Source: Leptolyngbyaceae cyanobacterium C42_A2020_001
GTDB taxonomy: Bacteria > Cyanobacteriota > Cyanobacteriia > Leptolyngbyales > Leptolyngbyaceae
DNA: 64,000 nucleotides
Direction: 5' to 3'
Assembly: GCA_015272515.1 (NCBI GenBank)
Contig: JACYLN010000025.1
Coordinates: forward strand, 47,224-111,223
Below are positions 19,787 to 26,153 of this stretch, in pieces. A program made the translations under genes and the position numbers. The notes beneath the pieces are model-generated. The model did no database searches, was not told the origin of the DNA, and saw only the letters and a list, made by a program, of their open reading frames with translations. The first letter of the stretch is position 1. Every line of letters starts with the position of its first letter.

Positions 19787-20353
19787 ATGACTGCTGAGGT
19801 TTTAGTTGAAAAGAAGAAGTTAGCAAAGCCACCCCTGGAGATTCACCATTTGGGCGATCGCGTCTTGCGTCAGCCTGCGAAGCGCGTTGCAAAGGTGGAT
19901 GCAGAAATTAAGCAAGTCATTCGTGAGATGTTGCAGACGATGTACAGTGCCGATGGCATTGGGCTGGCAGCACCTCAAGTTGCAGTACACAAGCAAATTA
20001 TTGTGGTAGACGTAGAACCAGATGAAGCGGTGAAACCGCCTTTGATTTTAATTAACCCAACCATTATCAAGAGTAGTCGAGATAATTCTGTTACTCAGGA
20101 AGGGTGTCTCAGCATTCCGGGTGTATACCTCGACGTGAAACGCCCCTCAGAGGTTGAGGTGTCTTATAAGGATGAAACGGGTCGCCCTCAGCGGTTGACA
20201 GCAAACGGGCTGCTGGCGTGCTGCATTCAGCATGAAATTGACCATTTGAATGGCGTGTTGTTTGTAGACCGAGTTGAAAATGCGCTGTTGCTTGATCAGG
20301 AATTGAAAAAGCATGGTTTCTCTTCAAGAGCGGTTCAAACCGTCGCTTCCTAA
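19787..20353 (+). CDS. def: Peptide deformylase
   Basis: The protein has 188 residues. All three deformylase motifs are present: 'GIGLAAPQVA' (GxGxAAxQ), 'EGCLSIPGVY' (EGCLS, Cys metal ligand) and 'QHEIDHLNGVLF' (HExDH, two His ligands and the catalytic Glu). It removes the formyl group from the N-terminal Met of new proteins at the ribosome exit. The N-terminal 18 residues before 'LEIHHLGDRVLRQPA' are an extension seen in several cyanobacterial enzymes. It stands alone, behind a repeat-rich spacer. Confidence 0.97.
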   Translation: MTAEVLVEKKKLAKPPLEIHHLGDRVLRQPAKRVAKVDAEIKQVIREMLQTMYSADGIGLAAPQVAVHKQIIVVDVEPDEAVKPPLILINPTIIKSSRDNSVTQEGCLSIPGVYLDVKRPSEVEVSYKDETGRPQRLTANGLLACCIQHEIDHLNGVLFVDRVENALLLDQELKKHGFSSRAVQTVAS

Positions 20354-20680: not shown

Positions 20681-22114
20681 ATGACGGGAACGGATCGGTC
20701 TGTTGCATATCTCCAATTACTCCCTCGCTCTATAGAGGCGCAAGCAAAGTCATCGCTCTACCCATTGACCGGCGCGGATTCCTTTGCAATTGGAAGAGAT
20801 TTTCGCTGTCAGATTGTTTTAGATCCAACCGTTTATCGTTCTGTTTCTCGTCGCCATGCTGAAGTGAGCCTGATTGCTGGGTTTGAGGCATCAGACGGCA
20901 GGCGATTCTGGCAAGTGTGTGATCTCAACAGCAGTAACGGAACCTTTGTAAATGGCACTCGGTTGCAGGGATGTCAAATTTTGCAGAATGGCGACCGTAT
21001 CACGCTTGGGCAAAACGGTCCAGAGTTCGTGTTTGAGTGTCAGGCAACCGTTGAACCCCAACCCGAAGCATCGTTTCAGCCCGAAGCGATCGCGTTAGAC
21101 GAACTCTATCCCACTGCTCCCCCACCCGCGAAAGCCTCCTCTGCCAGTGCTTCATCTAAATCTGCCGCCCGATTCTCTGGCAGTCGATCGCCTGACTCTG
21201 TCAGCATGACTCAACTGTTCCCCATCCTGTCTACCGGGCGAGAACTGGCGCAAAAGGCATATTTGTTACCTGCCGGAATCACCATTTTGTTTGTGGTGCT
21301 GTTATTCCTGGCGATCGGCAATCCATTTGTCTTTAATGTCTTGCTAGCATCCTACCTGGCAGGTGCCGCCTACTACTTCGTCTATCAACTGTGTGGCAAG
21401 TTCAAGCCCTGGTGGATGATAGTTTCAATGGCAGTTTGCACTGCTTTGTTACTGGTCAGCCCGCTCTTAGACCTCTTTATTTTTGTCTTCCATCGTCTGC
21501 TACCAGGTGATCTCGTCAATACAACTTCGCAAACCAACTTCCTGGTTTTGCTGGTCAAAATGTTTTTTGGCGCAGGGTTGATGGAAGAGCTGTTAAAAGC
21601 GGTTCCTGTGATTGTGGCTACCTGGATTGGAACTCGCCTGAAGCCAACCTTACGCCAGAAAGTGGGAGTTTGGGAACCATTGGATGGGATCTTGTTGGGA
21701 GCCGCCTGCGCCGTGGGGTTTAGCTTGATGGAAACATTGGGCGTGTATGTTCCGGCAACTTACAAATCCGCTTTGGCGTTGGCAGGGCAAGATGCCGCGC
21801 AATTGGCAAGTTTGCAGTTGCTCATCCCTCGTGTTTTGGGTTTAGTAGCGGGACACATGGCATACAGCGGTTATCTGGGTTACTTTATTGGGCTAAGTTC
21901 GCTGCGTCGTCGTCAGCGCAAATTAATCTTGGGAGTTGGTTTACTGACATCTTCCGTACTTCATACTCTTTGGAACGCTGCCGGAATGGTGAATCCAGTG
22001 TTTCTCGCATTGATTGGAAGCATATCCTACGCGTTTTTGGGAGCTGCGATTCTTAAGGCCAGAGCGCTATCGCCGACGCGATCGCAAAACTTTGCTACTC
22101 GGTTCTACCAATAG
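20681..22114 (+). CDS. FHA domain fused to PrsW-family intramembrane protease
   Basis: The start is taken at ATG 20681 (477 residues); the track's 20621 overlaps the previous gene. The N-terminal FHA domain (about 30-120) has 'FAIGRDFRCQIVL', 'SRRHAEVSL' and 'LNSSNGTFVNGTRL', the phosphothreonine-binding loops. A Pro/Ser linker leads to 6-8 membrane helices with PrsW motifs: 'GLMEELLKAVPV' (EExxK), 'GFSLMETLGV', 'AGHMAYSGYLGYF' and 'SSVLHTLWNAAG' with conserved His. PrsW proteases cut membrane-bound substrates such as anti-sigma factors. The fusion suggests protease activity steered by Ser/Thr phosphorylation. A CHAT-FHA gene lies just downstream on the other strand. Confidence 0.9.
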   Translation: MTGTDRSVAYLQLLPRSIEAQAKSSLYPLTGADSFAIGRDFRCQIVLDPTVYRSVSRRHAEVSLIAGFEASDGRRFWQVCDLNSSNGTFVNGTRLQGCQILQNGDRITLGQNGPEFVFECQATVEPQPEASFQPEAIALDELYPTAPPPAKASSASASSKSAARFSGSRSPDSVSMTQLFPILSTGRELAQKAYLLPAGITILFVVLLFLAIGNPFVFNVLLASYLAGAAYYFVYQLCGKFKPWWMIVSMAVCTALLLVSPLLDLFIFVFHRLLPGDLVNTTSQTNFLVLLVKMFFGAGLMEELLKAVPVIVATWIGTRLKPTLRQKVGVWEPLDGILLGAACAVGFSLMETLGVYVPATYKSALALAGQDAAQLASLQLLIPRVLGLVAGHMAYSGYLGYFIGLSSLRRRQRKLILGVGLLTSSVLHTLWNAAGMVNPVFLALIGSISYAFLGAAILKARALSPTRSQNFATRFYQ

Positions 22115-22120
22115 GTCAAA

Positions 22121-22146
22121 AGCCAGGAATCTTCTCACTCCTGGCT
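22121..22146. terminator. Bidirectional terminator between convergent genes
   Basis: AGCCAGGA and TCCTGGCT form an 8-base stem between the convergent FHA-PrsW gene and the 231-residue gene. A TTTT run follows on the minus strand, a TCTC run on the plus strand. Confidence 0.55.
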
Positions 22147-22179
22147 TCTCAAATTCTGGCTTCTAGGCTTCTAATTTGG

Positions 22180-22875
22180 TCAAGCGTCTTGCGAAGGTTG
22201 CAGTTCGCTGAGGGCGTAACGTGCGATCGCCAGTCCCAAACGTGCCCGCTGCACTTCTGAAAGGTGTTCCCACTCAACCTGGGGCACTTGAGCAATAAAC
22301 GAATCAATGGCGTTTGTCGTGCCACCGTTTCGCATCTGCACGGCCAGTGGACGCGCCAAAACATAAAAATCTTCCTCTGCCAAACCAGGGGCAATCTCCC
22401 GCACACATTCAACCAATTGATCGGCAAGGGTAGTGGATGCACCCACAACAGCTTGTTGCGCGCTGGCAACCACTTGCTGAGCTTGTTGAGCGATTGCAGA
22501 CAGCCAATTTTGAGGCACCCGCGCTGCAAAGCGCTCTACCAGAGTTGCCTGCAAACCAGTTGTTGCCCAAACGCGATCAATGCCAGCAAAAAACGACTGA
22601 GAACGACCAACAATTTCTTCTTCTTGCCAACCTTCAAAAATAGAAGGGGTTTCATCGTCAGCGAAAAAAGTTTCTGCCTCCGGCATCAACGGATTCCACG
22701 GATAGGCAATCTTGGCATTTGGCGCTTCTGCAACCGTAACCACTACCTCGCCAGATCCATCACCCCCAGGCTGAGTAAAACTGATGCCTTCTGAGTGTAG
22801 TAGAGCTGCAAAAAAATCTTGCTCAACCGTTGCGTTAATCTTTCCTACGTTACCGGAACAGAGTTTTTCTTCCAT
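22180..22875 (-). CDS. Unknown protein downstream of the CHAT-FHA gene
   Basis: I choose ATG 22875 (231 residues, 'MEEKLCSGNVGKINAT') because 'AGGAG' lies 8 bases upstream; the track's ATG is 21 bases earlier. The sequence is soluble and acidic. An N-terminal beta-rich part of about 100 residues ('ALLHSEGISFTQPGGDGSG', 'YPWNPLMPEAETFF') is followed by an all-helical C-terminal part rich in Ala and Gln ('AIAQQAQQVVASAQQAVVGA'). No known domain is seen. It lies 121 bases downstream of the CHAT-FHA gene on the same strand, so it may be its partner or substrate (inference). Confidence 0.65.
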   Translation of the reverse strand: MEEKLCSGNVGKINATVEQDFFAALLHSEGISFTQPGGDGSGEVVVTVAEAPNAKIAYPWNPLMPEAETFFADDETPSIFEGWQEEEIVGRSQSFFAGIDRVWATTGLQATLVERFAARVPQNWLSAIAQQAQQVVASAQQAVVGASTTLADQLVECVREIAPGLAEEDFYVLARPLAVQMRNGGTTNAIDSFIAQVPQVEWEHLSEVQRARLGLAIARYALSELQPSQDA

Positions 22876-22996
22876 CTCGCGGACTCCTGCATGCACTGAA
22901 ATAATAAATCAACTTCGCTGTTGAGAGTACCTACACACCCACAAAAGGCAGTTTCGGAATTCCATCAAATTTAGGATAAAAGTCGTACACCCTGCC

Positions 22997-24658
22997 TTAA
23001 GAACTAGAAGATGGTAAATCAGCCGGGCTAGAAATGACAAATTCCATCGCTTCGTTTTGGGTGCTGCCAAACTTGATTTGGGTACCTGGAGTCAACTCAA
23101 TTTCCTTATGATGAAGTTTCTGCCACGCCCCATTGCTCAACATCCACGTGCCAAAGCGAGAAAAATCTTTGAGAAAGTAGCTGAGATGATCATCTCCCTC
23201 TTGCCCATCTCGACACAAAATCATGGCGTGTTCACGAGACACTCCACTTTCATCCTCTCTTAGCACCAGGTCATTTTCCATACTTCTGCCAATTCGCATT
23301 AACCCACCTCGAACTTGCCACACTCGACCATCTTTCAGCGATCGCAAATAAGCAACATGAGTTGGCGGTTCTGGCGGACCAAAGCCCGTTTCACTCATCT
23401 CCAACGGTTTTAACAACTCCCCATTGAACTCAGGATGCATATAGAGGACGGGTAATGTCCAGGTTTGCTGATTAAACTTGTACAGCGTTAATAAATGCTG
23501 CCGTGCCACTGCCACCGCTTGATCAATCGGCATTCGTTGAGACAGCGATTGTGCAAACGCCTGGATAAAGCTGATTGCTTCGTGATCGGCGATTGGATCC
23601 CGCATCCCCAAAACCGCTGGCACACCATGATGAATCAGCACTTCCGCCAAACTGCTGCGAGGAATCGGCTGGGCCAGCTTAACCCCAGGAACACACTCCA
23701 ACCCGTTGCTATCTTCGTAGTGATCAGGCTGGGCACCCCAACAGGCATTGAAAACGGCTAACTTAACCTGGCAGCGGGTTAAAACCTGAGCAAGTTCTGT
23801 ACCATTCAGCGCCATATCCGAACGTAGAAAGATTAATCCGCCGTCTGGTCCTGGCATTCCATGACCAGCGTAGAACAAGACGTTATACACACGCTTCTCT
23901 AAAGCTTGAATCAGTTCCACCGGAGATGGCTGAACCAGAACGTCTACTTGGCAGTTAATTCCTCTGGAAATTCCAATCCCAGAATTACCAGAAGTCTTCA
24001 ACACTTGAGCTAAGGTTGAAGCCTCTTGTTCAAGCTTCAAGGTTTGCAAAGTATCGCTAGCAACCCCAGCACCATTGACCGGATCGGTGGGCTGTCCCAA
24101 CACCAGCAAGATTCTCAGGGCATAGTCAGACCGAAGTGGTGGTAAAGAATTGACATCGCTGGTTGTACGGCTGAAAAGAACTTGCTGACTCAAGGAGATT
24201 GCTTGCCTGCCAGGTGCATCCTGCATAATTTCCCAGGGTAAAGCGATGAGGTTGGGGTCTCGAATCTCTAGCCGCAACCGCAACGGCTTGTTTTGCCCCA
24301 TGGCAATGCCCTGGCTTTGGCTTAAGCTAGCGACGACAGGACCATCAAACAACCATTGCCAAAGCTGCACACCTAAGGTTTGCATTAAGCGTCCTGACAT
24401 TCCCCCTGTCTGTCCAGACTCTAAAAGCATCTCAGGCGCATCACCAGGAGCAGTGGGGTAGGGGGGCATCCGTCGGTTAGAAAACATTTCTTGCCACATC
24501 TGCCAAAGTTGGCTGAGGTCGTTTGACCAAATGCAGTCACGCAAGGCAAGCCCCCCTGGGTAGGGCGCTTGGGTCACGTGAATCGCAAAGTGTGCCGCTC
24601 CGGTTGTTTGTAGCGGAGTGACAGCCAGACTCAAATCAGGAGTTCCAGATGAAGGCAT
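22997..24658 (-). CDS. CHAT-domain (caspase-like) protein with C-terminal FHA domain
   Basis: The track starts at TTG 24676; ATG 24658 is preferred (553 residues). The N-terminal 170 residues are a helical effector-associated region ('DPNLIALPWEIMQ' before the fold). The caspase-like CHAT domain covers about 190-400 and has the catalytic His in 'LFYAGHGMPGPDGG' and the catalytic Cys in 'LAVFNACWGAQPD', followed by 'GVPAVLGMRDPI'. The C-terminal FHA domain (about 450-545) shows 'MRIGRSMENDLVL', 'SREHAMI' and 'FSRFGTW'. CHAT proteases act in conflict and cell-death pathways. The FHA domain suggests recruitment to phosphothreonine. The His/Cys dyad is intact, so activity is likely. Confidence 0.88.
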   Translation of the reverse strand: MPSSGTPDLSLAVTPLQTTGAAHFAIHVTQAPYPGGLALRDCIWSNDLSQLWQMWQEMFSNRRMPPYPTAPGDAPEMLLESGQTGGMSGRLMQTLGVQLWQWLFDGPVVASLSQSQGIAMGQNKPLRLRLEIRDPNLIALPWEIMQDAPGRQAISLSQQVLFSRTTSDVNSLPPLRSDYALRILLVLGQPTDPVNGAGVASDTLQTLKLEQEASTLAQVLKTSGNSGIGISRGINCQVDVLVQPSPVELIQALEKRVYNVLFYAGHGMPGPDGGLIFLRSDMALNGTELAQVLTRCQVKLAVFNACWGAQPDHYEDSNGLECVPGVKLAQPIPRSSLAEVLIHHGVPAVLGMRDPIADHEAISFIQAFAQSLSQRMPIDQAVAVARQHLLTLYKFNQQTWTLPVLYMHPEFNGELLKPLEMSETGFGPPEPPTHVAYLRSLKDGRVWQVRGGLMRIGRSMENDLVLREDESGVSREHAMILCRDGQEGDDHLSYFLKDFSRFGTWMLSNGAWQKLHHKEIELTPGTQIKFGSTQNEAMEFVISSPADLPSSSS

Positions 24659-24783: not shown

Positions 24784-25179
24784 TTATTTTGAGGTGAGGG
24801 CGGCTTGCGCTAAAGTCCAGTCAGGACGAAGGTTACGAGCGTGCCGCAGGTAGGGATGGTGGATTTCTACGTTGGGGTTTGGCGTATTGAAGTGAATTAA
24901 GAATCGAATGCAGCGTTCTAAACTTCCTTCTACATACATCTGTTGGACATCCAGCAGGGGCACGTTTGACCAGTGAGCGCGTTCACGGGCGATGGCTGCC
25001 GGGAAAATGGCATCTAGATCTCGCGTGACTGAAAAGGTAACGCTCACAATCTCATCCATGTCTAACTGATTGTGAAACTCTAGCTCGTCCAAGAGTTCGT
25101 TGACAGCCTCTCGAATTGCCTGAACTGAATTTTCTGGTACTGTTGTTGCGCCACGAATCGCTCGAACTCGCCAACCCAC
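24784..25179 (-). CDS. aroH: Monofunctional chorismate mutase, AroH class
   Basis: The track extends to 25332, but GTG 25179 has an ideal GGAGG 8 bases upstream and starts the family sequence 'VGWRVRAIRGATTVPEN' (131 residues). AroH-type landmarks are the 'RAIRGATT' strand with the active-site Arg, 'VSVTFSVTRDLDAIFPA' and 'VPLLDVQQMYVEGSLERCIR' with the second active-site Arg. The enzyme rearranges chorismate to prephenate for Phe and Tyr synthesis and acts as a trimer. It lies 135 bases downstream of sppA on the same strand. Confidence 0.9.
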   Translation of the reverse strand: MGWRVRAIRGATTVPENSVQAIREAVNELLDELEFHNQLDMDEIVSVTFSVTRDLDAIFPAAIARERAHWSNVPLLDVQQMYVEGSLERCIRFLIHFNTPNPNVEIHHPYLRHARNLRPDWTLAQAALTSK

Positions 25180-25313
25180 GCTCGTATCCTCCACACGCTT
25201 CAACCGTTGATAATTGTTCACAAATTTTATTTTCAATAAAAAGCTAGAGTTTGTATTTTCTTCTCTGATCATGGCTGAAAAGATATCAAACGTCAGCCAA
25301 GTTGGCAAAACCT

Positions 25314-26153
25314 TTATGGTCTGTACAACCAAAGAGGCAAACCGTTTGTGGAAAGCTCAAATTCAAGCAGTTCTGCTCCAGCAACAAGTCCCGGCAGCGA
25401 TCGCAGTTGGCTCAGCCTGCTGGCATCTCTCGACAAAACGCGGTTGAGGAGAGGCTTTTTCTCTTCTAAGGTAAAGCAGCGAGTCTTGTCAGGGTCGAGT
25501 CCAGCTAGCTCGGCTGCCCAACGACGAGCATCTTCTTCTGTCCCCAGGCGATCAACGATTCCCAACTCAACTGCCTGCTGCCCGGTGAAAATCCGCCCAT
25601 CGGCAAAGGTCTTTACAGTATCAACTGCAAGTTGGCGAGCTTCGGCAACCGTTTGCACAAATTGTTGATAGCTCACATCAATCAGTTCTTGCAAAATGTG
25701 GCGTTCCTGGTCGGTCATTTCGCGATCAAATGCCAGTATGTCTTTATAAGGACCAGACTTGATCACCTTAAAAGACACGCCAACCCTTTCCAGCAAGCGT
25801 TCTAGATTATTCCCCCGCAAAATCACACCAATGCTGCCAGTAATTGTGCCAGGGTTTGCCATGATGTGTTGGGCACCCATACCGATGTAAACGCCCCCGG
25901 AGGCGGAAATATTACCGAAACTGGCGACAATTTTGATCTTTTCCTGAAGCTTCTTTAGCGCTGTATAAATCTCCTGGGAATCACCGACGGTGCCACCGGG
26001 GCTGTCGATCCGTAGTAGTAAAGCTGGGAACTTACGTTCTTCAACCGTTTTTAGCGCTTCTAGTACCCGCTTTCGGGTTCCACCTGCGATCGCGCCATTA
26101 ATTTCAATCCGAGCAATTTGCTTCCGAAACCGGGGCTTGATGAACCAAACCAT
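25314..26153 (-). CDS. sppA: Signal peptide peptidase SppA, short form
   Basis: The protein has 279 residues, the short SppA form. It shows 'LLLRIDSPGGTVGDSQEIY', then 'GNISASGGVYIGMGA' with the catalytic Ser at about residue 85, and 'IKSGPYKDILAF' with the catalytic Lys at about residue 137 (Ser-Lys dyad). These enzymes digest cleaved signal peptides in the membrane; in cyanobacteria SppA homologues have been linked to light acclimation. No strong N-terminal membrane anchor is visible apart from a short basic-hydrophobic start ('MVWFIKPRFRKQIARIEI'). Confidence 0.9.
   Translation of the reverse strand: MVWFIKPRFRKQIARIEINGAIAGGTRKRVLEALKTVEERKFPALLLRIDSPGGTVGDSQEIYTALKKLQEKIKIVASFGNISASGGVYIGMGAQHIMANPGTITGSIGVILRGNNLERLLERVGVSFKVIKSGPYKDILAFDREMTDQERHILQELIDVSYQQFVQTVAEARQLAVDTVKTFADGRIFTGQQAVELGIVDRLGTEEDARRWAAELAGLDPDKTRCFTLEEKKPLLNRVLSRDASRLSQLRSLPGLVAGAELLEFELSTNGLPLWLYRP

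Follow-up and report, generated by a model that had tools for sequence, protein, structure and literature searches.

A HetF-related CHAT protease with an FHA domain and its conserved neighbours, an undescribed helical protein and a PP2C phosphatase, in cyanobacteria

HetF is a caspase-like protease that acts in cell division and differentiation of cyanobacteria, and HetR is mainly a marker of filamentous cyanobacteria. According to a review, HetF cleaves PatU3 (PMC12288457). HetF (alr3546 in Anabaena PCC 7120) has a CHAT domain homologous to that of the protein CHAT-FHA described here, with about 34% identity over 320 residues and the same His and Cys. HetF proteins have about 800–1150 residues with transmembrane and TPR parts, whereas CHAT-FHA has about 550 residues with an FHA domain, and the two occur in a nearly identical set of genomes. 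CHAT-FHA also has its protease fold in common with TPR-CHAT (Csx29, Craspase), SAVED-CHAT and separase (Foldseek E-values of 1e-9 to 1e-6), but it has no CRISPR, SAVED or TPR part, carries an FHA domain instead, and differs from all of them in its chromosomal, housekeeping context. Fusions of FHA and PrsW domains were noted earlier by Zhang et al. 2012 (PMC3482391); the accessible portion of that work does not mention their convergence on an operon of CHAT-FHA and a third gene, here called MID. A search of a limited literature collection for CHAT combined with FHA in cyanobacteria found no paper. If our reading is correct, this sister of HetF, with its phospho-binding domain, its ties to a phosphatase and to a protein of no known family, and a distribution that nearly coincides with that of HetF, would connect Ser/Thr phosphorylation with regulated proteolysis in cyanobacteria in a way open to experiment.

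The locus and its two proteases

The window, the whole 64,000-nucleotide stretch of DNA analysed, contains the following features.

19787–20353, plus strand: peptide deformylase (def), from Pfam, a frequent conserved neighbour upstream of FHA-PrsW
20681–22114, plus strand: FHA-PrsW, 477 residues, an N-terminal canonical FHA domain followed by a PrsW-family intramembrane protease, from Pfam and conservation
22120–22147, no strand: hairpin aagccagga/tcctggctt with a 10-base loop, read from the sequence, in the convergent gap between FHA-PrsW and MID
22180–22875, minus strand: MID, 231 residues, predicted to be mostly helical, of an undescribed cyanobacterial family
22997–24658, minus strand: CHAT-FHA, 553 residues, a HetF-related CHAT protease (His266, Cys306) with a C-terminal FHA domain

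The preliminary description of this DNA had FHA-PrsW facing CHAT-FHA around a gene of 231 residues, with the FHA domain N-terminal in the PrsW protein and C-terminal in the CHAT protein; the open reading frames, their strands and the Pfam domains agree with it. MID shares the orientation of CHAT-FHA, which it follows after a gap of 121 bp, and is tail to tail with FHA-PrsW. Judged by its letters, the hairpin could be a terminator shared by FHA-PrsW and MID; promoter and terminator scans gave chance-level results only, and the 10-base loop exceeds what the terminator scan accepts. We regard the peptide deformylase as context outside the claimed module. Open reading frames for a chorismate mutase and an S49 peptidase, overlapping slightly, adjoin CHAT-FHA (24784–26153, minus strand).

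Both active sites had been described as apparently complete, and conservation among homologues confirms this. CHAT-FHA matches Pfam CHAT (PF12770) above the cut-off (E 9e-25) and FHA at its C-terminus (E 9e-11). In the homologue alignment, which has one gap at the His, His266 is invariant in 95 of 95 aligned sequences and Cys306 in 96 of 96. The structure model (mean pLDDT 84.6) matches separase, TPR-CHAT and SAVED-CHAT as well as FHA domains in a Foldseek search of the PDB, so that score, catalytic residues and fold all place the protein in the CHAT family. The model also matches the transmembrane anti-sigma factor DdvA (8rot); a search for hydrophobic segments in CHAT-FHA found none. FHA-PrsW matches Pfam PrsW (PF13367, E 9e-32) and FHA (E 2e-17). 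Its EExxK motif, the following Glu and two His are invariant in 42 of 42 homologues and lie in transmembrane helices, the hydrophobic segments starting at about residue 189, which supports PrsW membership; the protein scores 24.4 bits with the PrsW equivalog model (NF033739), below its cut-off of 225 bits.

The FHA domain of the PrsW protein is fully canonical, with G-R..S-R.H..N-G-T invariant in the 42 homologues, and thus retains the phosphothreonine-binding residues (G-R, S-x-x-H, N-G). In the CHAT-FHA family, the Ser and His are kept, 68 of 96 members have the Arg and 28 lack it, and the conserved Asn is absent in nearly all, mostly replaced by Tyr or Phe; the window protein retains the Arg and has Phe in place of the Asn. 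Phosphothreonine binding by this domain is therefore not assured. The proposal of proteolysis controlled by phospho-signals thus stands in part, with the intact active sites and a linked phosphatase (see below) in its favour and the altered FHA domain of CHAT-FHA against it.

Kinship with HetF and distribution

The window CHAT-FHA matches the HetF model (NF045509) with an E-value of 1e-50 and 172.8 bits, far below the cut-off of 1200 bits, which is so strict that it is passed in only 8 of the 194 genomes of the window's class that we sampled. In most of these genomes, HetF was the second match to CHAT-FHA. An alignment with 17 HetF proteins showed that both catalytic residues, His and Cys, are shared, as are many of the residues around them. 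The tree separates CHAT-FHA from HetF by one fully supported branch, making them sister clades, with no CHAT-FHA inside the HetF clade. The C-terminal transmembrane and TPR region of HetF was not found in CHAT-FHA, which has the FHA domain there instead. Among the 94 genomes with CHAT-FHA, HetR is present in 89 and HetF in 91, counts that are inflated in part by shared ancestry.

MID occurs in 93 of the 194 genomes, in one copy each. It accompanies CHAT-FHA in 92, and 99 have neither. CHAT-FHA is found without MID in two genomes (one 79% complete and one in 1200 contigs), and MID without CHAT-FHA in one. The presence and absence of the two correlate even where the genes lie far apart, and G115, a genome of the same family, lacks both. 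FHA-PrsW has a wider distribution (124 of 194): it occurs with CHAT-FHA in 73 genomes and without it in 51, and 21 genomes have CHAT-FHA without FHA-PrsW. Because FHA-PrsW is common without CHAT-FHA and MID, it is better seen as a looser neighbour than as the equal member suggested at first.

CHAT proteases are known in defence, and the preliminary description had pointed to conflict and cell-death systems. An anti-phage or cell-death system with CHAT as effector could indeed account for Craspase and SAVED-CHAT among the structural matches and for weak matches to the SAVED_CHAT model in 19 of 81 CHAT-FHA members. However, none of the three window proteins matches a PADLOC family, about half of the genomes sampled carry a single CHAT-FHA next to housekeeping genes (ndhM, def), and the protein is sister to a developmental protease and tracks both HetR and HetF. 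We therefore find a conflict system improbable, and the evidence favours a chromosomal regulatory module with a HetF-type protease at its core.

Gene order and the linked phosphatase

We compared gene neighbourhoods around 92 copies of MID and around a further 20 of CHAT-FHA at separated positions, two of the loci (L002 and L062) apparently representing a single genome. At its most complete, the block runs ndhM, PP2C, CHAT-FHA, MID in one direction and then FHA-PrsW and peptide deformylase in the opposite one. In 76 loci, CHAT-FHA and MID are direct neighbours with the same orientation and a median gap of 150 bp; MID and FHA-PrsW converge in 42, and ndhM lies upstream of PP2C in 49. The same block is seen in numerous genomes from several families and is thus not a chance arrangement; the adjacency and near-perfect co-occurrence of CHAT-FHA and MID bear out their conserved neighbourhood.

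In 74 loci, CHAT-FHA is directly preceded by a co-directional gene for a zinc-ribbon, membrane-anchored PP2C phosphatase. This protein matches Pfam PP2C; its PP2C motifs and four Cys are conserved, and its catalytic Asp residues are invariant or nearly invariant. Of 73 sequences, 70 have a hydrophobic segment C-terminal to the catalytic domain. A search for a nearby Ser/Thr kinase or phosphatase, as had been suggested, thus yielded this linked phosphatase in relatives and no kinase adjoining the genes. In the window genome, the nearest PP2C homologue is on another contig beside phosphate-transport genes; having moved away from the locus, it was invisible in the sequence first inspected. A related locus (L001) still keeps a PstS-like gene, PP2C, CHAT-FHA and MID together, which suggests that a rearrangement in the window's lineage separated PP2C from the other two. 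The window genome has two zinc-ribbon PP2C paralogues (L181:5298-7625 and L162:1483-3402), one of them adjoining pst-type genes.

Anabaena also has two similar membrane-located PP2C paralogues, PrpJ1 and PrpJ2. PrpJ (all1731) is reported to be a membrane PP2C needed for heterocyst maturation. PrpJ could serve as a lead to a counterpart of the linked PP2C; a search of a limited set of papers for Anabaena locus tags found nothing.

The four proteins might instead work in unrelated processes and have stayed together through the slow change of cyanobacterial gene order. The neighbours ndhM and def are likewise conserved, MID and PrsW stay adjacent across the tree no more stably than ndhM and PP2C do, and linkage changes are similar for all pairs. 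The gene order that includes ndhM and def may indeed be plain inherited synteny in large part. For the block as a whole, we give inherited synteny little chance, because the occurrence of CHAT-FHA goes with that of MID even when the genes are far apart and because G115 is without both.

We see an even chance that the block is a HetF-like proteolysis module under phospho-control, located on the chromosome, inherited vertically and found mostly in cyanobacteria with HetR. Its protease activity, phospho-control and role in division or differentiation, as well as an adaptor role of MID, are what we infer from these comparisons. In such a module, CHAT-FHA would be a soluble cysteine protease, its probable targets being one or a few regulatory proteins, comparable to PatU3 in the case of HetF. 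The FHA domain might recruit the protease to a partner, possibly a phosphorylated one, and the linked membrane-anchored PP2C would probably reverse that phospho-mark. FHA-PrsW, only loosely tied to the others, might provide a parallel response to phospho-signals at the membrane.

MID and the in-place loss of CHAT-FHA

MID had been described as a gene of unknown fold, and this holds: it belongs to no family in Pfam or PADLOC, NCBIfam gave only sub-threshold noise, and members of the MID family had only scattered weak family matches. A PDB sequence search with MID alone found nothing, and one with a MID profile gave only helical-bundle noise. Apart from a short hairpin at the N-terminus, the structure model (mean pLDDT 81.7) is helical; a PDB fold search with it gave no match at E ≤ 0.001.

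Six species in two genera of one family (loci L075 and L194–L198; genomes G037 and G204–G208) have intact MID and FHA-PrsW genes and no CHAT-FHA match. All six keep the order of ndhM, PP2C, MID, PrsW and deformylase, and none has an intact CHAT-FHA frame in the interval upstream of MID, where four retain a remnant of the FHA end of CHAT-FHA. The dN/dS of MID is 0.14–0.45 in pairs with decayed CHAT-FHA and 0.07–0.33 in pairs keeping it. MID is thus still constrained after the decay of CHAT-FHA, perhaps slightly less so.

These species bear on the suggestion that MID serves the CHAT protease alone, as its substrate or inhibitor, and is cut or released upon a phospho-signal. The near-perfect co-occurrence with CHAT-FHA, the operon-like adjacency and a middle-gene position like that in protease–substrate pairs would all fit. 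However, MID persists under purifying selection where CHAT-FHA is a remnant or gone, and its only invariant Arg residues (175 and 182) belong to a long helix of the model rather than to a loop. MID is therefore unlikely to be simply a substrate or inhibitor, and its role seems to extend beyond CHAT-FHA. In the proteolysis module that we prefer, MID would be an adaptor or regulatory partner in the same signalling branch with a second, CHAT-independent role.

More tentatively, and with the odds against it, the HetR-bearing cyanobacteria might possess a second developmental pathway of the HetF type, in which a membrane PP2C, possibly of the PrpJ type, an FHA-guided CHAT protease and MID as a new class of adaptor would convert a phospho-signal into selective proteolysis governing division or differentiation.

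Two further observations concern the species without CHAT-FHA. G037 retains only the C-terminal part of HetF and lacks HetR. In L198:4370-6639, PP2C is split into two overlapping frames, by a frameshift or an assembly error.
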